This document shows, piece by piece, positions 20,080 through 47,377 of a stretch of 64,000 nucleotides of DNA. Where the stretch lies: contig JARVGK010000003.1 of assembly GCA_029762535.1 (NCBI GenBank), forward strand, positions 62,001 through 126,000. The letters run 5' to 3'. The stretch is from Thermoplasmatota archaeon. Lineage in GTDB: Archaea > Thermoplasmatota > Penumbrarchaeia > Penumbrarchaeales > Penumbrarchaeaceae. Below the pieces are notes generated by a model. It ran no database searches, was not told where the DNA came from, and saw only the letters and a program-made list of their open reading frames with translations. How positions within the stretch are numbered: the first letter of the stretch is position 1; the number at the start of each line of letters is the position of its first letter. Made by a program: the position numbers and the translations under genes.

Positions 20080-21273
20080 ATGGTACTGCGAGGTGGAGCT
20101 TTCTGCCCCGGGCATATCACCGGGCTTTTTTCCATACACGACGATACCGAGATGTACCTCCACAAAGGCTCCAGGGGGTCCGGGGTCTCCGTTACCCTCG
20201 GGGCCTCCGTTTCCACTGCACTGTATCCCCCTGAAGATGGGAACGGGACGGAGAACCTTTCACTGGAGCTTCATGTAAGGGGAGTTGACAAGTTCCCCGT
20301 GAACGATCCGATATACCGCCAGGTCCTGAAGGAGATGCTTCCCAATTCAGGTATCGGATGGAGGGCGGCTGTAAGGTCGAACCTGCAGCTGCCCGTAGGT
20401 CAGGGGTTCGGAATGTCGGGAGCCGGCGCCCTAGCCACCGCAATTTCCGTCTGGGAGGCCCTCCATTCGACCATTCCGCGCTGGGACCGAAAATTGAGGT
20501 TCAAGGGACAGCAGGAGATGTTCTTCTCGATGAAAACGTCGGAGTTCAGCGTCAGGCCGATAAGGAGGAGGATGCGCTCACACCTGCAGCTTCTGTCAAT
20601 GAAGGAGGAACCCTCGCTGCCTGTCCAGCCTTTCGGCAAACCCTCAGGAATGGTGGAGGAGGGAGGGGTCAGGCCCCCCATGAGGTGGCTCAAGGACAGC
20701 GAGGCCGAAAAAGGGTCCGGTGGGATCACGTACGCCGATTGCGTGAACGCGGCGCACAGGGTCGATGTCATGATCGGCGGAGGTCTGGGCGATGTGATCT
20801 CACAGGCCAGGGGCGGCGTGGAGATCAGGATGTCTCCCGGCGTCCCGCCCTACGGGGAGATCCACACCATCCCCGTGGAGCTGGACAACACCCCGAAAGT
20901 GATCGCCGCCACGGTGGGGCCCCCGATAGAAACTTCGAGGGTGATAGGGAATCCCGCAAGAAGAGAAAGGATACACGGGGCGGGCGAGGCGGCGTTGAGG
21001 AGGCTGACAGAAGCGCCATCGATGACCATGATGATGTCAGAGAGCAGGCAGTTCTCCATCGAGGCCGGGATCCAGAGCATGATGGTGAGGTCCGCCCTCT
21101 CCGAAGTCGATGCGATGGTGAAGGCCTCGCAGATAATGATCGGCAACAGCGTGTTCACCATGGTACCGAGCAAGGATAAGGACCTCGTCAAAAGTATCAC
21201 GGAGATCTGGGGAAGGAGAGGAAGCGTATTCTCCATGGACGTGGACCTGATCGGTGCGAGGCCCTTGACCTGA
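20080..21273 (+). CDS. Pantoate kinase with a large insertion
   Basis: GHMP-family kinase that phosphorylates pantoate in the archaeal CoA pathway. 397 residues, about 90 longer than usual pantoate kinases (around 300). The opening AFCPGHITGLFSI and the GHMP ATP loop LPVGQGFGMSGAGALAT (about residues 105-121) are clear, as is GGGLGDVISQARGGVEIR later. The extra length is a basic and proline-rich stretch at about 135-215, between the ATP-loop helix and the helix starting YADCVNAAHRVDVM. A Shine-Dalgarno (aaggaga) precedes the ATG. Its partner, phosphopantothenate synthetase, is not in the window. Confidence 0.9.
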   Translation: MVLRGGAFCPGHITGLFSIHDDTEMYLHKGSRGSGVSVTLGASVSTALYPPEDGNGTENLSLELHVRGVDKFPVNDPIYRQVLKEMLPNSGIGWRAAVRSNLQLPVGQGFGMSGAGALATAISVWEALHSTIPRWDRKLRFKGQQEMFFSMKTSEFSVRPIRRRMRSHLQLLSMKEEPSLPVQPFGKPSGMVEEGGVRPPMRWLKDSEAEKGSGGITYADCVNAAHRVDVMIGGGLGDVISQARGGVEIRMSPGVPPYGEIHTIPVELDNTPKVIAATVGPPIETSRVIGNPARRERIHGAGEAALRRLTEAPSMTMMMSESRQFSIEAGIQSMMVRSALSEVDAMVKASQIMIGNSVFTMVPSKDKDLVKSITEIWGRRGSVFSMDVDLIGARPLT

Positions 21274-21575: not shown

Positions 21576-22646
21576 GTGTTGATCATGTTGGAGGACCAGC
21601 TTTCCACATCCAGGTTCGAGAGCGTTGGGGTCAATGTCCCCTCCAGGTCACTCACGACCACCGACCTTATGAGGTCCATGAAGCACAGGATCGGGCTAGA
21701 CCTCGAGAGGCTTACGGGCATCCATGCTAGGAGGGTCTGCGCCCCAGGAGAGTCATCATACACATTGGCCCTGAATTCCGCCAGGGACTGCCTCAGCCAT
21801 TCGAGATACAAGCCGGATGACCTGGAGGTTATAATAAACTGCTCCATATCCCGTTCAAAGGACCGGAACATGATAGTCTATGAACCATCCATGGCCCATT
21901 ACATCCGTCAGGCGATCGGGGCCAAGAACGCAATGGTGTTCGATATCAACAATGCATGCGCTGGAATGCTAACGGGCGTTCAGATACTAAACGGTTATAT
22001 CAGGAACGGAATATTCAAGAACGGCATGGTCGTCAGCGGAGAGCATATAACGCCGATCAGCGACAGCGCGACAAGGACGGTCAGGTCGATAGCGAGCAGA
22101 CAGCTCGCCTCCCTTACCGTTGGAGACGCGGGAGCCGCGGTAATACTCGAAAAAACGGGGGATCGGGGCAACGGGATGTCGGTCACCCAGTTCACCACCC
22201 TCTCGAAGTTCAGCAGGCTCTGCATAGGAAAGCCGCTCACCAACGATATCGGCGGAATGATGGTGGCAAAAGCAAGGAAGATCCACAGGGTGGCCCTGGA
22301 CCACGCCCCTCAACTGATCAAGGGGGCCCTCATCAAGGCGGGACTGACCATAGACAGGATAGATCATCTCATCCCGCACCAGACCTCGAAAAGCTCAATA
22401 AAGAAAGGCATAAAGGAGATGGCCGACCATTTCAAAGCGACTCCCAAGAACGTCGTCATCAATCTGATGGAGTATGGGAATACGGCCTCGACGACAGTGT
22501 TCCTTGCCCTTCATGACATGCTCAAGGGCGGCATCGTGAAGAAAGGCGAGAAGATCATGCTATTGTGCTTCGCATCGGGCCTGGTCGTTGGGGTTATCAT
22601 CTTTACAATGGACGATCTGGTGGATCGATATGGGATCTCGAATTAG
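21576..22646 (+). CDS. oleA: OleA-like head-to-head acyl condensing enzyme, catalytic subunit
   Basis: Thiolase-superfamily (KAS III-like) protein, 356 residues. OleA condenses two acyl-CoAs without decarboxylation to a 2-alkyl-3-keto acid. Visible: LERLTGIHARRV substrate loop, catalytic Cys128 in DINNACAGM, His268 in LIPHQTSK and Asn302 in EYGNTAS. Glu103 in VYEPSMAH sits 25 residues before the Cys, matching the spacing of bacterial OleA Glu117 and Cys143 (the base for condensation). Start GTG at 21576; ATG at 21585 is an alternative. It overlaps the next ole gene by 17 bp. HMG-CoA synthase was considered, but the presence of oleB, oleC and oleD alongside makes OleA much more likely. Confidence 0.82.
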   Translation: MLIMLEDQLSTSRFESVGVNVPSRSLTTTDLMRSMKHRIGLDLERLTGIHARRVCAPGESSYTLALNSARDCLSHSRYKPDDLEVIINCSISRSKDRNMIVYEPSMAHYIRQAIGAKNAMVFDINNACAGMLTGVQILNGYIRNGIFKNGMVVSGEHITPISDSATRTVRSIASRQLASLTVGDAGAAVILEKTGDRGNGMSVTQFTTLSKFSRLCIGKPLTNDIGGMMVAKARKIHRVALDHAPQLIKGALIKAGLTIDRIDHLIPHQTSKSSIKKGIKEMADHFKATPKNVVINLMEYGNTASTTVFLALHDMLKGGIVKKGEKIMLLCFASGLVVGVIIFTMDDLVDRYGISN

Positions 22647-23526
22647 GTCAGCCGCATTCGTTGGGAAGAGCCTCAACCCTTTCTCCAGAGGCGCCATATC
22701 ACTGGGTGTCAAGGCTGCGAGGAAATGCATCCATAACTCGGGTATAGACCCGTCAGACATAGGACTGCTCATCTTCTGCGGAATATACCGGGACGAGAAC
22801 ATCGGGGAGCCGGCCATCGCCTCGCTCATACAGTCCAATCTTGATATCAACCTCCTGAGCGAGGGTGAGAAGGGGACGTTCGCGTTCGACATACTGAACA
22901 GCGGTTGTGGGATGGTGACCGCGCTCCATGTGGCCGACAGCCACCTCCGATCGGGTGGAGGTGAATATGCGATGATAGTGGCCTCCGATCACATACCCAT
23001 CCCGAGCCATACCGAGGGTTACCCTTTCCAACCCGGGGGAGGCGCACTTCTGCTCGAACGCTCCGACGAGGACAGGGGCCTTACCGATTTCAGGTTCGAT
23101 ACATATCCGACCGACAAGGAGGCCTTCCACTCGTTCATCGAATACAGGGACGGAAAGGAGAAGGGTAAAAAGAAGGGGCAGTTCCTCAGGTTCGAGGAGG
23201 ACCCACATTTCCTGGAAAAGGGCGTATCGGGTGCGCTTATGACGGTTAATAAACTCCTTGAGAGGAATTCACTGAGCATCGATGACGTACGGTCGATCCT
23301 GCCATCCCAGAGCCCGACAGGCTTCCCCATTGCCCTTGGAAAAGGGTTGGGCCAAGAGAAGAGGACCATTGACCTTACAAGCATCCATGGGAACCTCCAC
23401 ACGGCGGGATTGGCGGCCTGTCTCGAGAGCGCCATGGAGAGCGATAAGCTTCCTGCGAACTCGAACCTCCTTCTCGTAAATGTTGGATCGGGAATATCGG
23501 TGGGCGCGGCCCTTCTCCGAACATGA
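22630..23526 (+). CDS. Second OleA-like subunit lacking the catalytic His
   Basis: 298 residues, KAS III-like fold shorter than its neighbour at the N-terminus. It keeps Glu60 in GEPAIAS, Cys93 in LNSGCGM and Asn255 in HGNLHTAG, but the active-site His position reads LPSQSP (Ser226). It therefore probably cannot run the full reaction alone and may form a heterodimer with the upstream OleA, giving the Glu across the interface. Heterodimeric OleA-like pairs are known for lipstatin (LstA/LstB) and nocardiolactone synthesis. The frame is open upstream to a TTG at 22588, but ATG 22630 gives the conserved opening and a short 17-bp overlap with oleA. The heterodimer is inference. Confidence 0.75.
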   Translation: MGSRIRSAAFVGKSLNPFSRGAISLGVKAARKCIHNSGIDPSDIGLLIFCGIYRDENIGEPAIASLIQSNLDINLLSEGEKGTFAFDILNSGCGMVTALHVADSHLRSGGGEYAMIVASDHIPIPSHTEGYPFQPGGGALLLERSDEDRGLTDFRFDTYPTDKEAFHSFIEYRDGKEKGKKKGQFLRFEEDPHFLEKGVSGALMTVNKLLERNSLSIDDVRSILPSQSPTGFPIALGKGLGQEKRTIDLTSIHGNLHTAGLAACLESAMESDKLPANSNLLLVNVGSGISVGAALLRT

Positions 23527-23557: not shown

Positions 23558-24553
23558 TCAGATCGGATGCCCCTTCAGATATTCTCCATACCTCTTCATA
23601 CCCTCCGCCGTGGAAATCCTAGGTCCGTAGCCAAGGTCCCTTTTGGCCGAGGAGATATCGAACCAGTGTGAACTGGTCATCTCCTCCACAAGGAACCTGG
23701 TGACAATGGGCTCTCCTCTCCTTCGAAGGAGGAAGTGGGTCAATTCCATGATCCCCGCTAAAGCCATGGCCGTCCATTTGGGAATGGACCCCCTGATAGG
23801 AGGGGCCCCTGCAAGGGCCAGGAAGTCATCGATGGCATCCCAGGCATTCACTGGCTCACCGTTGGTGATGAAATATGCTCTGCCCCTGCATCGTGGGTTC
23901 TCCTTGAGCGCTTTGAGGGCCAGGATATGGGCCTCGGCGGCGTTTTCAATATAAACCATGTCCACAACGTTCTTTCCGCCCCCTAACCTCTTCAACCTTC
24001 CGGCCCTTGCCCCCTGGACGAGCCGAGGGAGCAATCGGTCGTCCCCCGGACCCCAGATGAGATGCGGACGCAGTGCAATGGTCCGAATATCATCGCCGTT
24101 CGCTGAGAGGACCATACGCTCGGACGCCGCCTTGGTCCGGTTGTAATGCGACCCATGCACTGCGGGATACGGTGCGCTCTCATCGGCGCCCTCCATGTCC
24201 TTCCCATCAAAGACAACGGAAGGGGAGCTTGTGAAGACGAGGTAACCCACTCCGTTACTCCTGCATGCTTCGATCACGTTCCGGGTCCCCTCAACGTTCG
24301 TCCTGTGGAATTCGTGATAAGGCCCCCAGAAACCCACCCTGGCAGCAGTATGTATGACCGCATCCATGCCCCCGACGGCATCCACCACCGTTCGCTGGTC
24401 CCCTATGTCCCCTGATATCGTCATGATGCCGCTCTTCCCAAGTTCAGGATAGCTGCCTCTGGAGAAGCTCGTGACATCATGGCCCTGATCCCGGAGCATG
24501 TGACATATGGCTCCTCCCAGGAACCCGCCTCCGCCGGTGACGAGGACCCTCAT
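23558..24553 (-). CDS. oleD: OleD-like NADPH-dependent 2-alkyl-3-ketoalkanoate reductase
   Basis: Extended short-chain dehydrogenase, 331 residues. Rossmann motif VTGGGGFLGG (6-14), HTAARVGFWG (68-77), catalytic Tyr137 and Lys141 in YNRTK, and the RPHLIWGPGD loop, all as in OleD and 3-beta-HSD-like enzymes. Expected role: reduces the OleA product to a 2-alkyl-3-hydroxy acid. The start is the ATG at 24553, which overlaps the oleC stop by one base (TGATG), so translation is coupled; an upstream in-frame start at 24574 lies inside oleC and is unlikely. Last gene of the oleB-oleC-oleD operon; its end lies 31 bp from the end of oleA2, tail to tail. Confidence 0.85.
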   Translation of the reverse strand: MRVLVTGGGGFLGGAICHMLRDQGHDVTSFSRGSYPELGKSGIMTISGDIGDQRTVVDAVGGMDAVIHTAARVGFWGPYHEFHRTNVEGTRNVIEACRSNGVGYLVFTSSPSVVFDGKDMEGADESAPYPAVHGSHYNRTKAASERMVLSANGDDIRTIALRPHLIWGPGDDRLLPRLVQGARAGRLKRLGGGKNVVDMVYIENAAEAHILALKALKENPRCRGRAYFITNGEPVNAWDAIDDFLALAGAPPIRGSIPKWTAMALAGIMELTHFLLRRRGEPIVTRFLVEEMTSSHWFDISSAKRDLGYGPRISTAEGMKRYGEYLKGHPI

Positions 24554-26175
24554 CAGAATTGCCTCCCGGCCCATTCCGCAAGCTCTTCCCTGAGTATCTT
24601 GGCATTGTGGCGAACGTCCATCGGGAATCCGTCATGGATCAGGATATCTCTAATATCCTCGGTCAGAATATTGGCCTTTCCCAAAGCCAGGAGCTCCTTT
24701 TTGATCCTGTCCGGATCGCCGATATTTTGGTCCTTCTTAAGCTCGACAACGATCACAGGCCTCTGGTTTCCTATTTGACCCACACCGACTAGTGCCGACC
24801 TGAAGACCAAGGGGTGTTTGTTGAAGATCGCCTCACATCTGACGGGATATAGCGTTCCTTTCTTTGTCACGACCCTGTGCGCCTTCCTCCCGCAGAACCA
24901 GAGCATTCCGTCCTCCAGATAGCCCGTGTCCCCCATTCTGTGCCATATGGTCTTGCCATCCAGTATCTTGGCGTTTTTGGTATGCTCAGGCTTCCTGAAG
25001 TATTCCTTGGTCACCGAGGGCCCCCTCACGCATATCTCACCGACTTCCCCATCCGGTAGGACCTCAGCGGACCCCCAATCCGCGACAGGTCCGTCCGTGA
25101 TCCGAATGATCCGAACCTCGTTGCCAGGTAGCGGCCTACCCACGCATGTTCCTGCTCCGGTCTCGGTCCTGCGGAGGGAGTGCTCCAGTATCACATCGCT
25201 GGAGATATCAGTTACTGGCAGTGCCTCGGTCGCCCCGTAAGGAGTATGGATAAGAGCATTTTTTGGCAGTATTCGGTGAAGATCGACCATGAGGTCGGGA
25301 CGTATTGGAGCTCCCGCGGTCACGATCCTTCTCACCGATCCCAGGGTCAACTTCCTCTCTATCCCGTAACGGGCCAGGTTCGTCAAGAGCGCCGGGGAAC
25401 CATAGACATTGGTGCATTTCTGGTCCTCAATGGCCCTGACTATGTTCTTAGGATCGGCCTTTCCGGGCTTGGTAGCATCCATGTAAGGGATGACCGAGGT
25501 CAGCCCCAGGTTGGCGTCGAATAGGGCGAAGAGCGGGAACGTCGCCAGGTCAACATCTCTCTTTTCGTATCCGAAATGGTCCTTTAGGAATCCGATCTGA
25601 TGGTCGAACATGGAATGTTCGTAGACCACTCCCTTCGGGGGGCCTGTGGAACCGCTGGTGAAGAAAATACCGACGGTATCCTCAGGCCTTCTCTTGACCG
25701 AAGGGAAAGGAGCGGGATCGGAGGATCGAACCTCTTTAAGCCTCTTACCGCCCCATGCACCTGTGGTTATCTTCAGTTCGACGGTCCTGAAAGCGGACGG
25801 TGAGAGTATCCTGAGTACATGGGCAAGGGGCGTCCCGATGAACGCCTTGGCCTCGACCTCCCCGAGGGAGGAGACGAGCCTCTTCTTGCCCATACCAGGG
25901 TCTATCATAACAAGGACAGCCCCCATTTTTAAAAGGGCGGAAGTGAGGGAAAAGAACTCTATCGAGGGTTTGACCATCAGGATGGCCTTGTCGTCCTTCT
26001 TGAGCCCCGCATCGATCAACCCCCTGGCGTATCTGTTCGATTCCTCCTCTAGCCTGCGGTAGGTCATGCTCCTATATCGAGGAGACGGATCGACCTGGAC
26101 CACCACAGCCGCCTTATCAGGTTGTGTCCTTGCTAACTCCGTCAACCTCTCCGAGAGGTTCGTCGTCGAATCCAT
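24553..26175 (-). CDS. oleC: OleC-like beta-lactone synthetase
   Basis: ANL-superfamily AMP-forming enzyme, 540 residues. In bacteria OleC uses ATP to close a 2-alkyl-3-hydroxy acid to a beta-lactone. Features: phosphate loop FFTSGSTGPPKGVVYEH, the OleC-like DLATFPLFALFDANLGLTS and VIPYMDATKPGKADPKNI segments, NVYGSPALL, AGAPIRPD, HTPYGATEALPV, and the C-terminal hinge GDTGYLEDGMLWFCGR. These OleC-specific stretches separate it from ordinary acyl-CoA synthetases. It starts 4 bp after the oleB stop and overlaps oleD by one base. Closest alternative is a generic fatty-acid ligase, less likely given the neighbours. Confidence 0.87.
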   Translation of the reverse strand: MDSTTNLSERLTELARTQPDKAAVVVQVDPSPRYRSMTYRRLEEESNRYARGLIDAGLKKDDKAILMVKPSIEFFSLTSALLKMGAVLVMIDPGMGKKRLVSSLGEVEAKAFIGTPLAHVLRILSPSAFRTVELKITTGAWGGKRLKEVRSSDPAPFPSVKRRPEDTVGIFFTSGSTGPPKGVVYEHSMFDHQIGFLKDHFGYEKRDVDLATFPLFALFDANLGLTSVIPYMDATKPGKADPKNIVRAIEDQKCTNVYGSPALLTNLARYGIERKLTLGSVRRIVTAGAPIRPDLMVDLHRILPKNALIHTPYGATEALPVTDISSDVILEHSLRRTETGAGTCVGRPLPGNEVRIIRITDGPVADWGSAEVLPDGEVGEICVRGPSVTKEYFRKPEHTKNAKILDGKTIWHRMGDTGYLEDGMLWFCGRKAHRVVTKKGTLYPVRCEAIFNKHPLVFRSALVGVGQIGNQRPVIVVELKKDQNIGDPDRIKKELLALGKANILTEDIRDILIHDGFPMDVRHNAKILREELAEWAGRQF

Positions 26176-26179
26176 CAGC

Positions 26180-27082
26180 CTACCCCCTGCGCAGGGCTTT
26201 CCCCACCTCTTTCAGGATGCGGTCCCTGGCATCCTCTATGACATAATGTCCAGCATCCTGATATGTCACGAATCGGGCCTTCGGGAATCGAGCCCTCCAG
26301 ACGTCTAATATATCCATATCGAATATGAAATCCTTTTCACCCCAAATAACGAGCATCGGCTTCCCCTTTAGCTTTGACAGGTTCTCGTCGATCCACTTGA
26401 GCGTGCCGTAGCTTGGGTCCTTTGGTACGAGGGGTATGTCCTGAACGAACCTGAGCGTGGATAGGCGGTTCCTCCACGAGTTGTACGGGGCGACGTAACC
26501 CTTCCTTACATGGGGGTCCATCCTCTTTTCAACGCCGATATGGGACGCTATTCTGGAAAAAGCGTTGAGACCCCTGATGAGAAGGGTCGGTGAGATCAGG
26601 CCGTACTTCACGTAATAGAGAGACAGGGGCAATCTCTTGCCCTCCGGCATCCTGAAGGCCGCGGTGTTCATGAACACGAACCTCGAGAACCGCTCCGGAT
26701 GTCCGACCGCGACCCCTGCTCCGATCACACCCCCCCAATCATGGGCTATCAGAGTGATATCCTCATCGATGCCCAGGTGATCGAGGAGCGCTTCCACATC
26801 CTGGATCCTGGATGCGATCCTGTATTGGTATTTGTCCTCTCCTGGTCGGTCCGACAGCCCCATTCCCATATGATCGGGCACGATGCATCGGTGGTCCGCC
26901 CTGAGGTCCTTGACCAGCTCCCGGAAATAAAAAGACCAGGTCGGGTTGCCGTGAAGAAAAAGAACGGGAGGTCCCCTGCCCTCGTCGAGATAATGATGCC
27001 TCAGACCGTTCCTCTCGAACCAGTGATGTTCGAACGGGTAAATGTCCCTGAAAGGGGTAATATCGAAAGGTGTTCCATGCAT
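26180..27082 (-). CDS. oleB: OleB-like beta-lactone decarboxylase (alpha/beta hydrolase)
   Basis: 300 residues, haloalkane-dehalogenase-like fold. OleB removes CO2 from a cis-beta-lactone to give a cis-alkene. Visible: oxyanion loop HGNPTWSFYFREL (44-56), nucleophile Asp115 in AHDWGG, PDHMGMGLSDRP, the OleB-like cap stretch YVAPYNSWRNRLSTLRFVQD (196-215), candidate acid Asp251 in WGEKDFIFD, and catalytic His279 in AGHYVIED. The cap and PFEHHWFERNG opening match OleB better than epoxide hydrolases or dehalogenases. First gene of the minus-strand operon; a weak AT-rich promoter lies near 27108-27120. Confidence 0.87.
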   Translation of the reverse strand: MHGTPFDITPFRDIYPFEHHWFERNGLRHHYLDEGRGPPVLFLHGNPTWSFYFRELVKDLRADHRCIVPDHMGMGLSDRPGEDKYQYRIASRIQDVEALLDHLGIDEDITLIAHDWGGVIGAGVAVGHPERFSRFVFMNTAAFRMPEGKRLPLSLYYVKYGLISPTLLIRGLNAFSRIASHIGVEKRMDPHVRKGYVAPYNSWRNRLSTLRFVQDIPLVPKDPSYGTLKWIDENLSKLKGKPMLVIWGEKDFIFDMDILDVWRARFPKARFVTYQDAGHYVIEDARDRILKEVGKALRRG

Positions 27083-37341: not shown

Positions 37342-37407
37342 GGCTTCTTACGTTCGGATAATCCCGATATAAAAAACCAACTGTCTATGTCCTGGGAGGT
37401 ATGCAAC

Positions 37408-38337
37408 ATGGTAGATAAGGTCCAGGTAGAGGAAGTCACGAAATGCCCCGAATGCGGTTCCGAACACATAATAAGGGATTACGAGAGGGGCGAGCTTGTT
37501 TGCGGAGACTGCGGAGTGGTAATAAACGACCTGCAGATAGACATGGGTCCCGAGTGGAGGGCCTTCGATTCCGCCCAGGGAGAGGCCAGGGCCAGGACCG
37601 GAAGCCCCATCACCCTCACAAGGCATGACAAGGGGCTTTCCACAGAGATAGGGTGGAAGAACAAGGATTCCTACGGAAAGTCCATTCCATCCCGTAACAG
37701 GGCTCAGATGTATAGGCTAAGGAAGTGGCAGAGGAGGATCAGGGTCAGCAACGCCACGGAGAGGAATCTGGCCTTCGCGCTCTCCGAGCTTGACCGTGTA
37801 GCATCCGGGCTCGGTCTACCCCGCAATATCAGGGAGACGGCCGCTATGATATACAGGAACGCGGTGAACAAGAACCTGATCAGGGGTAGGTCCATTGAGG
37901 GTGTTGTAGCGTCATCCCTTTATGCGGCATGCAGACAGTGCAACGTCCCCAGGACGCTAGATGAGATATCAGCGGCATCCAGGGTGAGCAGGAAGGAGAT
38001 AGGAAGGACCTATCGGTTCATGACCAGGGAATTGAACCTCAAGCTAATGCCCACATCACCTCAGGATTACGTGTCAAGGTTCGCATCCGAGCTCAAGCTC
38101 TCCGGAGAGACGATAACCAAGGGTTACGAGATCCTGAAACAGGCGGACCAGCTGGAGATCACTTCAGGCAGGGGGCCAACGGGCATGGCCGCCGCGGCGA
38201 TATACATAGCCTCCATCATGACCTCGGAGAGGAGGACCCAGAGGGAGGTCGCAGACGTCGCCGGGGTTACGGAGGTCACCATAAGGAACCGCTACAAGGA
38301 GCTTGCGGAGCAGCTCGGGATCGATCTCGAGATATGA
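37408..38337 (+). CDS. tfb: Transcription initiation factor TFB
   Basis: Archaeal TFIIB homologue that bridges TBP-bound promoter DNA and RNA polymerase. 309 residues. N-terminal zinc ribbon [25 protein letters not shown]-reader/linker with EWRAFDS and ARTGSPITL; two cyclin-fold repeats starting near [20 protein letters not shown] and [15 protein letters not shown]. The second repeat ends with the BRE-recognition helix-turn-helix [22 protein letters not shown]. Start ATG 37408 has gggaggt 8 bp upstream; a further in-frame ATG at 37387 is unlikely. The complete domain set suggests a functional general factor. Confidence 0.97.
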
Positions 38338-43819: not shown

Positions 43820-44098
43820 ATGACCGATGAGGAGTATCTGGATTTCTACGGCGCCGAATGCGAGGGCTGCGCCATGGTATCGGGATTCATAGATGAGATC
43901 GAGGTGGAGGAGAAAGTGTCTTTCAAGAAGCTTGAGGTGTGGCACAATTCCAAGAACCAATCCCTCATGATGGAGCTATCCAAGGAGAGATGCCATACGG
44001 TTCCAATGCTCTACAACCGCAGGACGGATTCCGTCCTGTGCGGATCCCCGACCAAGGACGACATCCTGAAATGGGTCAGGGAACAGAAATCGAAGTGA
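43820..44098 (+). CDS. Thioredoxin-like protein
   Basis: 92 residues. Begins DEEYLDFYGAECEGCAMVSGFI: a CEGC motif in the usual place after the first strand, and CHTVPMLYNRRTDSVLCG with the cis-Pro position. Shorter than classical thioredoxin. The start ATG 43820 has cggaggaa 8 bp upstream; the frame is open further back to 43709 without a ribosome site. The stop is 5 bp before the E1alpha start, so it probably heads the 2-oxoacid dehydrogenase operon. Possibly a redox partner for it, by position only. Confidence 0.7.
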   Translation: MTDEEYLDFYGAECEGCAMVSGFIDEIEVEEKVSFKKLEVWHNSKNQSLMMELSKERCHTVPMLYNRRTDSVLCGSPTKDDILKWVREQKSK

Positions 44099-44103
44099 TC
44101 TCT

Positions 44104-45219
44104 ATGATATTCGGATCGTTCGATCCCCTCAAGGGGGATATGTTCCAGGTCCTTGACCCTGACGGAAAGCTCGTGGCGGAGGATCCCGGCCTTGATCCGG
44201 TCCTCATGAAGGACCTGTACAGATGGATGCTCTACGGGAGGCTAGCCGACGAGAAGGCGGTCAAGCTCCAGAGACAGGGCAGGATGGGCACATACGCTCC
44301 GGGCAAGGGCCAGGAGGCGTCCCAGGTCGGCCCAGCGCTCGCCATGGGGGATTATGACTGGCTCTTTCCATCCTTCAGGGAGCTTACCACATACATGATC
44401 AGGGGTTACCCTCTGGAGTACAACCTGCTCTATTTCATGGGCGATGTAAGGTCAAATCAGGTACCGGAAGGGACGAAAAGCCTCCCCATATTCGTCCCCG
44501 TGGCAACACAGGTGCCCATCGCCGCCGGAGCGGCGTGGGCCCTGAAGAAAAAGGGCAGCGGCTCCGTTGTGGTGTGCTACATGGGCGACGGCGCGACCTC
44601 TGAGGGCGATTTTCATGAGGGGCTGAACTTCGCAGGTGTGTTCCGCGTCCCTGCGCTGTTCATTTCCCAGAACAATCAGTGGGCCATATCCGTTCCAAGG
44701 AAAAAGCAGACCCTGAGCCGGACAATAGCGCAGAAATCGCTCTCATACGGGATCCCAGGCGTTCTCGTGGATGGCAACGATGTGCTGGCTATGTACATTG
44801 CCGCCAGGGAGGGGATCGAAAGGGCCAGGAACGGGGAAGGCCCGTTCTTCATAGAGGCCTTCACATACCGGAGGATGATGCACACCACCGCCGACGATCC
44901 CGGCAGATACCGGACTCCCGAGGAGGAGGCGGAATGGGATCTGAAGGATCCCCTTCGCAGATTCAGGGCCTATCTGGAGGGAAGAGGGATCTGGACCCCT
45001 GAATGGCAGAAGCAACTGGAAGCGGATGCGGAGGAGATGATTAAGAAAGCTGTTGAGAAGGCGGAATCATTGGGGCCCCAGGAGCCGGAGGACCTTTTCC
45101 GGCATATGTATGAGGAGATGACCCCCGCCCTTGTGGAGCAGCTGGAGTATCTGAAATTCTCCCTGGCCAACAGGGAAATAGAGGAAGAGGCCGACGAGAT
45201 AAAGGGGGGATTCCCATAG
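44104..45219 (+). CDS. 2-oxoacid dehydrogenase E1 component, alpha subunit
   Basis: 371 residues. Thiamine diphosphate motif GDGATSEGDFHEGLNFAG with the closing NN in FISQNNQWAIS, plus the family segment GRMGTYAPGKGQEASQVG. With E1beta it decarboxylates pyruvate or a branched 2-oxoacid and loads the lipoyl arm. Start taken as ATG 44104. Substrate cannot be decided; thermoplasmatal versions are often branched-chain enzymes. First gene of E1alpha-E1beta-E2, E1beta beginning 2 bp later. Confidence 0.93.
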   Translation: MIFGSFDPLKGDMFQVLDPDGKLVAEDPGLDPVLMKDLYRWMLYGRLADEKAVKLQRQGRMGTYAPGKGQEASQVGPALAMGDYDWLFPSFRELTTYMIRGYPLEYNLLYFMGDVRSNQVPEGTKSLPIFVPVATQVPIAAGAAWALKKKGSGSVVVCYMGDGATSEGDFHEGLNFAGVFRVPALFISQNNQWAISVPRKKQTLSRTIAQKSLSYGIPGVLVDGNDVLAMYIAAREGIERARNGEGPFFIEAFTYRRMMHTTADDPGRYRTPEEEAEWDLKDPLRRFRAYLEGRGIWTPEWQKQLEADAEEMIKKAVEKAESLGPQEPEDLFRHMYEEMTPALVEQLEYLKFSLANREIEEEADEIKGGFP

Positions 45220-45221
45220 AG

Positions 45222-46190
45222 ATGAACATGGTCCAGGCCATCAATTCCGCCTTGAAGGTCGAGATGGAGCGCGATCCCAGCGTCGTCGTACTCGGCGAGG
45301 ACGTAGGACTCAACGGAGGCGTGTTCAGGGCCACCGAGGGCCTTCAGGAGCTATTGGGCGAGGACAGGGTCATGGACACCCCTCTGGCCGAGTCGGGCAT
45401 AGTGGGGTTCTCCATAGGCGCCGCCCTCATGGGCATGAGGCCTGTGGCAGAGATACAATTCATGGGATTCCTCTGGCCCGCCATCGATCAGCTTGCGAGC
45501 CATGCCGGCAGGCTGAGGAACAGGACGCAGGGCCGCTTCTCGGTTCCGATGGTCGTCAGGTTCCCCTACGGCGGAGGCGTAAGGGCCCTGGAGCATCATG
45601 CGGAGAGCTACGAGGCTACGCTGGCGCACATCCCCGGACTCAAGGTGGTGATACCATCGACGCCGTATGATGCCAAGGGGCTGTTGATCTCCTCGATACG
45701 GGATCCTGATCCCGTCATATTCATGGAGCCGAAGAAACTGTACAGGGCCGGAAAGGAGGAGGTCCCCGAAGGGGAATACACCGAGCCGATCGGCAAGGCC
45801 AAGGTCCTTCGGGAGGGAGATGATATCACCCTAGTGGGCTGGGGATCCTTGGTCCCCAGGCTCTTGAAGGCGGCCCGGCTTATTGAGGACAAGGGGATCT
45901 CCGCGGAGGTGATCGACGTAAGGACGATCTCTCCATACGACGAGGGAACGGTCCACGACTCCCTGGAGAAGACAGGCAGGATGCTGGTGGCGCAGGAGGC
46001 GCATCGTAATCTGGGGTTCGCCTCGGAGATCGCGGCCAGGGCTCAGGAGAAGATGATGGATGTTATGGAGGCCCCGATCCTGAGGCTGACCGGTTTCGAC
46101 GTGCCGTTCCCGTTCTACAGGATGGAGAACTGGGCCATGCCCGATATTGACAGGATAATCAAGGGGATAAGGGAGGTGCTGACATGGTAG
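45222..46190 (+). CDS. 2-oxoacid dehydrogenase E1 component, beta subunit
   Basis: 322 residues, complete. Opens MVQAINSALKVEMERDPSVV (with a preceding MN), includes GEDVGLNGGVFRATEGL and DTPLAESGIVGFSIGAALMG, the standard transketolase pyrimidine-binding domain, and the C-terminal domain with EVIDVRTISPYD. With E1alpha it forms the alpha2beta2 decarboxylase. Overlaps the E2 start by 7 bp, so translation is coupled. The start ATG 45222 and ATG 45228 are both possible. Confidence 0.94.
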   Translation: MNMVQAINSALKVEMERDPSVVVLGEDVGLNGGVFRATEGLQELLGEDRVMDTPLAESGIVGFSIGAALMGMRPVAEIQFMGFLWPAIDQLASHAGRLRNRTQGRFSVPMVVRFPYGGGVRALEHHAESYEATLAHIPGLKVVIPSTPYDAKGLLISSIRDPDPVIFMEPKKLYRAGKEEVPEGEYTEPIGKAKVLREGDDITLVGWGSLVPRLLKAARLIEDKGISAEVIDVRTISPYDEGTVHDSLEKTGRMLVAQEAHRNLGFASEIAARAQEKMMDVMEAPILRLTGFDVPFPFYRMENWAMPDIDRIIKGIREVLTW

Positions 46191-47377
46191 TGGAGTTCAG
46201 GTTCCCCGACGTGGGGGAGGGAATAACCGAAGGCAGATTGAAGAAATGGCATGTCGCCGAAGGTGATCAGATCAAGGAGGACCAGATAGTCGCCGAGATG
46301 GAGACCGACAAGGCGGTGGTGGAGATGCCCTCCCCGGCCTCCGGCAAGGTCCTGAAATTGAACTTCCTCGAGAACGAGAAGGTCAGGGTGGGGGAGGTCC
46401 TCCTCGTCATAGGCGGAGAGGGTGAGAAGGCCGGGGACACTGTTCAGGCAACGGCGGCCGTGGCGCCCCCCAAGGAGGGTTCATTGGGGGGCCTTCTGGG
46501 CAGGAGAAGGCCTTCTTCGACCAGGGCGATCCCGCGGGTCAGGATGCTGGCCGAGGAGAAGGGGGTGGACATGGAAAGCATCCCGGGCACGGGACCGGAG
46601 GGAAGGGTCACCGAGGAGGACGTGCTCAAAGCCGCGGCGCCGAAGAAGAAACCCCTTAAGATCAAGTCGAACTTCGATTTCTACGGACACATAGATCACG
46701 TTCCGTACACTGGCATGAGGGAGGTAATCGGCAGGAGGATGTCGGAATCCAAGTTCACGGCTCCTCACGCCACGACCATGGACGATGCCGATGTGACCGG
46801 GCTCTACAAGCTTAGGAAGAGGATCAACTCCGAGAAGGATATACATCTCACTTTCATACCCTATCTCATCATGACCGTCGTAGAGGCCCTCAAGGAGAAC
46901 CCGATGCTAAACGCGATGCTTGATCCAGAGAACGAGGACATCATCGTGAAAAAGTACTACAACATCGGGATCGCAGTGGACACCCCCAACGGGTTGATGG
47001 TCCCCGTCGTAAAGAGGGTGGAGCAGAAGAAGATGAAAGGTATCCAGAAGGAGATAGAGGGCCTCGTGGAGAGGGCCAAGGATAGGTCGATCGACCTTGC
47101 CGATCTCAAGGGCGGGACCTTCACGATCTCCAATTACGGGTCGATTGGAGGGATATACGGGGTACCCGTCATCAATTTCCCGGAGGTGGCGATCCTTGGG
47201 GTAGGGAGGATAAGGGACATGCCCGTGGTCAAGGACGGGAAGATAGCGATCCGAAAGGTAATGGGATTGTCCCTGTCGATCGACCACAGGGTGGTCGATG
47301 GAGGCAACGCCTCGAGGTTCCTCAACAGGGTCATAGAGCTTCTGGAGGATCCGAAATGGCTTTCGGATAAGGTCTGA
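46184..47377 (+). CDS. 2-oxoacid dehydrogenase E2 component (lipoamide acyltransferase)
   Basis: 397 residues. Single N-terminal lipoyl domain with lipoylation site Lys43 in METDKAVVEMP, a subunit-binding domain (about 110-150, STRAIPRVRMLAEEKGVDM), and a catalytic core with the active-site stretch SIDHRVVDGGNASRFL (His and Asp). It transfers the acyl group from lipoamide to CoA, making acyl-CoA. No dihydrolipoamide dehydrogenase (E3) follows: the next gene is the AbiE antitoxin. The lipoylation enzyme is not in the window. Confidence 0.95.
   Translation: MVVEFRFPDVGEGITEGRLKKWHVAEGDQIKEDQIVAEMETDKAVVEMPSPASGKVLKLNFLENEKVRVGEVLLVIGGEGEKAGDTVQATAAVAPPKEGSLGGLLGRRRPSSTRAIPRVRMLAEEKGVDMESIPGTGPEGRVTEEDVLKAAAPKKKPLKIKSNFDFYGHIDHVPYTGMREVIGRRMSESKFTAPHATTMDDADVTGLYKLRKRINSEKDIHLTFIPYLIMTVVEALKENPMLNAMLDPENEDIIVKKYYNIGIAVDTPNGLMVPVVKRVEQKKMKGIQKEIEGLVERAKDRSIDLADLKGGTFTISNYGSIGGIYGVPVINFPEVAILGVGRIRDMPVVKDGKIAIRKVMGLSLSIDHRVVDGGNASRFLNRVIELLEDPKWLSDKV

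Follow-up and report, generated by a model that had tools for sequence, protein, structure and literature searches.

A predicted two-subunit OleA-type condensing enzyme encoded beside oleBCD genes in an archaeon

Two overlapping genes, A1 and A2, in the window (the whole 64,000-nucleotide stretch of Thermoplasmatota DNA analyzed here) probably encode an obligate heterodimeric KAS-III enzyme of the LstA/LstB (NltA/NltB) type, with which olefin synthesis would begin; we put the probability of this reading at about 0.8. The analysis, which draws on MAG-based genomes, covered domains, catalytic register, family conservation, co-inheritance, OleBCD context and the intactness of motifs, and a physical A1:A2 heterodimer is strongly supported by this indirect evidence. 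The locus, from whose genes an olefin is predicted, would extend head-to-head hydrocarbon synthesis to Archaea, from which, as from Bacteroidetes, a 2020 survey reported ole clusters to be absent (PMC7158056). A search of the available literature found no description of archaeal ole clusters or of a heterodimeric OleA together with OleB.

The A1/A2 gene pair

Each protein matches both KAS-III Pfam domains (ACP_syn_III and ACP_syn_III_C) over the whole domain, and single-chain AlphaFold2 models compared by Foldseek have a FabH fold for A1 (pLDDT 91) and a confident FabH-like fold for A2 (pLDDT 90). Relative to full-length KAS-III proteins, A2 is missing an N-terminal segment only. An earlier note on this DNA had spoken of an OleA split into two genes; because A2 has both domains and a confident FabH-like fold, nothing is split, and that reading was rejected on the domain matches of the two proteins. 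What the note had said of two thiolase-like genes overlapping by 17 bp, which lie on the plus strand, and of A2 being shorter at its N-terminus was borne out. The A1 stop codon ends at 22646 and the A2 ATG stands at 22630 (Table 1), an overlap that likely couples translation of the two genes. An ATG giving the same 17-bp overlap occurs in 70 of 108 homologous pairs, bacterial as well as archaeal, a recurrence that makes it more than chance. Overlaps are 7-10 bp in the pairs of f18, another archaeal family of the same phylum, and in most Nlt/Lst-like pairs the two genes are no more than about 10 bp away from abutting.

Table 1. Features of the A1/A2 locus in window coordinates; A1 residue numbers count from the ATG at 21585
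Feature	Position	Strand	Basis
A1, catalytic KAS-III subunit (LstA/OleA-like), 353 aa	21585..22646	+	Pfam ACP_syn_III/_C, FabH fold
A1 alternative start, in-frame GTG (used in the earlier note)	21576	+	
A1 Glu100	21882..21884	+	Profile alignment with X. campestris OleA: aligns to OleA Glu117
A1 Cys125, nucleophile	21957..21959	+	Alignments
A1 His265	22377..22379	+	Alignments
A1 Asn299	22479..22481	+	Alignments
17-bp overlap, A1 3' end/A2 5' end	22630..22646	+	Sequence
A2, putative Glu-donor KAS-III subunit (LstB-like), 298 aa, without catalytic Cys/His	22630..23526	+	Pfam ACP_syn_III/_C
A2 Glu60, proposed to enter the A1 active site	22807..22809	+	Aligns to OleA Glu117; same number as LstB Glu60
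A2 Gly92, at catalytic-Cys position	22903..22905	+	Alignments
A2 Cys93, often conserved, one residue beyond catalytic register	22906..22908	+	Alignments
A2 Ser226, at catalytic-His position	23305..23307	+	Alignments
OleD, 2-alkyl-3-oxoalkanoate reductase (SDR)	23558..24574	-	NCBIfam NF042422 E 2e-119, below curated cut-off; GGGGFLG and YNRTK motifs
OleC, olefin beta-lactone synthetase (AMP-binding)	24553..26175	-	NF006754 above cut-off; NF045786 E 1e-169, below; TSGSTGPPKG motif
OleB, beta-lactone decarboxylase-like alpha/beta hydrolase	26180..27082	-	Pfam Abhydrolase_1; haloalkane-dehalogenase-type NCBIfam matches; HDWGG and GHY

Catalytic residues and their conservation

An A1 alignment, used to scan 84,980 species genomes, found 463 relatives. 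Among the best 80 of these 463, which were used here, an A2 homolog directly follows A1 in 78; one of the two exceptions (L074) has none beside it and the other (L143) stops at the contig end. The scan set, Actinomycetota clusters found via OleC and the archaeal families f1 and f18 make up 109 pairs, distributed over Bacteroidota, Myxococcota/Deltaproteobacteria, Actinomycetota, Aminicenantes and two archaeal families. Dereplication at 80% identity leaves 49 pairs, with A2 readable in 48.

Catalytic positions were assigned by alignment with E. coli FabH, Aquifex FabH and X. campestris OleA. A1 has Glu100, Cys125, His265 and Asn299, the full set that the earlier note had attributed to it. Its Cys, His and Asn are each present in 49/49 dereplicated pairs, and in the A1 homolog set Cys is found in 89/89 and His and Asn in 88/88 readable sequences. 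The window A1 also retains its own Glu, as does A1 in 42/49 dereplicated pairs, so that A1 might form a homodimer if judged by residues alone.

In A2, the FD-x4-Cys of active enzymes reads FD-ILNS-Gly92; Cys93 comes directly after this Gly, and the Gly that follows Cys93 is in register. The nucleophile position is Gly92 and the catalytic-His position Ser226; A2 therefore lacks the catalytic Cys and His. The loss of the His, already pointed out in the earlier note, holds across homologs (His in 0/48 dereplicated A2 proteins). Glu60, Cys93, Ser226 and Asn255, listed there for A2, are all present as numbered, but the Asn is unconserved (7/48), and Cys93, which had been taken for a retained catalytic residue, is noncatalytic: it lies one position off, and the true site holds Cys in 0/48. 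Cys93 was accordingly rejected as a nucleophile on the alignment register; a Cys occurs at this next position in 32/48. Glu60, present in 48/48, is the only strictly conserved catalytic residue of A2, which turns the single studied case of LstB Glu60 into a family-wide rule: no other catalytic residue is retained by every A2. In f18, whose A2 proteins are 234-237 aa long with much of the C-terminal half missing, the A1 Glu is replaced by Ser in 5/6 dereplicated pairs and the A2 Glu stays. A2 is therefore the sole source of a Glu in those pairs, and these archaea, with an A1 devoid of its own Glu, represent a natural complementation experiment.

Two residues past the Asn position, A2 has a His (His257, window 23398-23400; HTAG motif) that is shared by 17 of the 22 A2 proteins aligned; Tyr or Cys takes its place in the remaining five.

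Co-inheritance is seen in the distance matrices of A1 and A2 (Mantel r 0.93; 0 of 5000 permutations as high). A2 forms one clade in a quick tree whose deep placements are uncertain, and the Actinomycetota A1-A2-C-D clusters group with the window pair in the tree. The proposal of an LstAB-like heterodimer with divided roles, also made in the earlier note, thus draws support from residue conservation, the matrix correlation, the loss of the A1 Glu in f18 and the Actinomycetota clusters. Relatives of A2 were not found in the viral contigs searched.

Proposed reaction

A1 would hold the only active site, in which Cys125 would accept an acyl group; this group would condense with a second acyl-CoA in a non-decarboxylative Claisen reaction assisted by His265 and Asn299. 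A2 would complete the dimer, and its Glu60 would extend across the subunit boundary into the active site of A1 to play the part that Glu117 of the neighboring subunit plays in the OleA homodimer. OleD would then reduce the resulting 2-alkyl-3-ketoacid, OleC would close the product to a beta-lactone, and decarboxylation by OleB would leave a long-chain internal olefin. We infer the placement of Glu60, the reaction and the product; the one-active-site reading, in which A1 catalyzes and A2 gives Glu60, is adopted because of the LstAB precedent. Residues 55-58 of A2, a loop that precedes Glu60, form the sole stretch of at least three residues with pLDDT <50 in the AlphaFold2 model, and disorder of this loop would weakly fit its ordering by the partner subunit.

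The ole genes beside the pair

The OleD, OleC and OleB genes are convergent to A1/A2, and OleD ends 31 bp from the A2 stop codon. The window thus has what marks an ole pathway, OleB, OleC and OleD beside a condensing enzyme with their motifs intact. The presence of OleB beside the pair leads us to predict an olefin and not a beta-lactone as the end product. Against the reading as a whole, OleC and OleD do not reach the equivalog cut-offs that NCBIfam sets for known Ole enzymes. Within the window's archaeal family, OleB, OleC and OleD co-occur with the pair: B-C-D are present at 51-61% identity in the sister genomes G003 and G005 (in the former on a different contig from the pair), and B-C lie at the end of a contig in G004. 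A close OleC was not found in the pair-less sister genera g3 and g4.

The cluster order is A1-A2-B-C-D in Deltaproteobacteria and B'-A1-A2-C-D in Bacteroidota, Chlorobiota and KSB1; B' and the window OleB share only about 30% identity. Actinomycetota have the order A1-A2-C-D, often with an NRPS-like adenylation gene, a layout that matches the organization of the lipstatin and nocardiolactone clusters; no OleB match was found in these A1-A2-C-D clusters. A close OleC was not found in pair-bearing Mycobacterium and several pair-bearing Myxococcota/Aminicenantes genomes, and the pair is therefore not tied to olefins everywhere.

Possible acyl supply in an archaeal host

Archaeal membranes are isoprenoid, so the source of acyl substrates is a fair objection. 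The genome of the window encodes a 3308-aa PfaA-like type I fatty acid/PUFA synthase (L190:819-17261, G000 contig C17) with the domains KS-AT-four ACP-KR-DH-phosphopantetheinyl transferase and a second KS-type stretch. Beside it lies a gene for a 2142-aa multidomain acetyl-CoA carboxylase whose central region is eukaryote-type, and five acyl-CoA dehydrogenase matches occur in the same genome. KS matches in large frames are also found in sister genomes G003, G004, G005, G006 and G009. The PfaA-like megasynthase could supply acyl chains for the pair; G009 has a KS megasynthase and lacks the A1/A2 pair, and the link is therefore plausible only. A literature search found no paper on an archaeal PUFA-like synthase, and whether archaea, with their isoprenoid membranes, make fatty acids and olefins becomes a testable question.

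Genes for CoaBC and an archaeal-type pantoate kinase lie upstream of the pair. The pantoate kinase frame (window 20080-21273) encodes 397 aa, about 100 aa over the family models, and is matched in two separate pieces, so that an insertion or a frame error may be present. At window 43939-47377 this archaeal genome encodes E1 alpha, E1 beta and E2 subunits of the pyruvate dehydrogenase type.

Pair neighborhoods in other lineages

The f18 archaea (L038-L046) have a conserved cluster of A1, truncated A2, an approximately 550-aa protein without a Pfam match, an OleD-like SDR and a PaaK-like adenylate ligase, preceded in L039 by a fatty acid hydroxylase. This cluster looks like an Ole/Lst analog with a different ligase and without OleB. 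In the set from Mycobacterium and relatives (L091-L144), the Mycobacterium pairs adjoin what appear by eye to be universal stress proteins and an Acg-like nitroreductase, surroundings resembling dormancy-regulon neighborhoods. In Smaragdicoccus and a Nocardiaceae MAG (L135:8869-11310, L140:9028-11292), A2 is fused to an apparent wax ester synthase/acyltransferase with an HHxxxDG-type motif, and Antrihabitans has a similar wax ester synthase/acyltransferase-like protein encoded by a separate gene nearby (L127:10036-11436). The condensed product may feed storage lipids.

Alternative explanations

A1 might be an ordinary OleA homodimer, with A2 as an accessory, regulatory or decaying duplicate, given that the window A1 keeps all four catalytic residues, its own Glu100 included, and that A2 evolves faster (tree end branch 1.07 versus 0.37 for A1). 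We consider this quite unlikely: A2 is retained beside A1 across bacterial and archaeal phyla and is under purifying selection (dN/dS between sister genomes G003 and G004 of about 0.14, with about 0.07 for A1), keeps its Glu in 48/48 despite the loss of Cys and His, and is the only source of this residue in most f18 archaea. In addition, LstA alone is insoluble, and co-expression of the LstAB subunits is required for solubility (PMC12141560). Taken literally, the residue list of the earlier note would make both A1 and A2 catalytic, each via its own Cys. This is hardly credible; most A2 proteins do have a Cys at the place of Cys93, but it lies one past the nucleophile position in every alignment, is found in only 32/48, and is not accompanied by a His at the catalytic position.

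If the heterodimer is real, its end product might still be a beta-lactone, a ketone or the product of another lipid pathway instead of an olefin. The window OleB, with intact HDWGG and GHY and only 4 bp from OleC, and the retention of B-C-D in G003 and G005 and of B-C at the contig end in G004 make this rather unlikely here, although the Actinomycetota clusters without detected OleB, often with an NRPS-like adenylation gene as in lipstatin, and the Mycobacterium pairs without OleC speak for it. Bacterial contamination of an archaeal MAG, very improbable, would account for the bacterial-like genes and for the closest A1 relative, which comes from an Aminicenantes MAG (56% identity). It was rejected because an archaeal TFIIB (window 37387-38337), which marks the window as archaeal, lies on the same contig and the same pair is found in two sister genomes; the contig also carries the archaeal-type pantoate kinase beside CoaBC, and these two further archaeal MAGs of the family have the pair in other contexts. 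An obligate A1/A2 heterodimer that starts olefin synthesis is thus the preferred reading.

Comparison with known systems

The seed pattern of the 2020 survey, EPxx[AS]x(14,18)DxxNACL (PMC7158056), matches X. campestris OleA and only 1/109 A1 proteins. It misses A1 because it requires a Leu after the Cys, where Ala stands in 104/109. The window A1, with NACA and a partner gene, falls outside a canonical OleA defined by a single gene and the survey motif. This mismatch is likely a sufficient explanation for the survey's miss, to which the taxon sampling of 2020 may also have contributed. It is conceivable, though we would not quite bet on the whole of it, that ole clusters with an OleA of two subunits form a large branch, spread over Archaea, Bacteroidota and Deltaproteobacteria, that was invisible to that survey, and that a PUFA-synthase-like type I FAS feeds the pathway in this archaeal family. 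The products there would then be long-chain olefins derived from fatty acids, which might be polyunsaturated and might combine two different chains.

X. campestris OleA and canonical oleABCD clusters share with the window locus the KAS-III fold, the Glu-Cys-His-Asn set and the B, C and D partners, whereas OleA is a homodimer from one gene with NACL at its Cys and heterodimeric A1 proteins mostly have NACA. PqsBC of Pseudomonas is a KAS-III heterodimer with a short second subunit, as is predicted for the window pair, and the A1 profile matches PqsC; PqsB is absent among the A2-profile matches listed (best 60 of 73), and PqsBC belongs to a different pathway. NltA/NltB act in nocardiolactone biosynthesis. 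Nlt/Lst-like clusters, found when OleC served as a guide to the family to which Antrihabitans belongs, have the order A1-A2-C-D in its genomes, and no OleB homolog was detected there.

In the lipstatin pathway of Streptomyces toxytricini, LstA/LstB work with OleC/OleD-type partner enzymes. The window pair shares with LstA/LstB an adjacent KAS-III pair, Cys-His-Asn in A and Glu60 in B, a likeness judged via homologous Actinomycetota A1-A2-C-D clusters (A1 33-41%, A2 28-36% identity). Three features of the LstAB type are found: adjacent, co-inherited KAS-III genes, Cys-His-Asn in A and, in B, an invariant Glu equivalent to LstB E60. The catalytic residues of LstA are C128, H271 and N305, the E60A exchange in LstB abolishes activity, LstAB is known to join two different acyl chains, and the A-B cassette has been described as widespread in bacteria (PMC12141560). 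By analogy with LstAB, the window pair might also join two different chains, as the earlier note suggested. The window pair differs from LstA/LstB in its archaeal host and in the presence of OleB, hence the prediction of an olefin.
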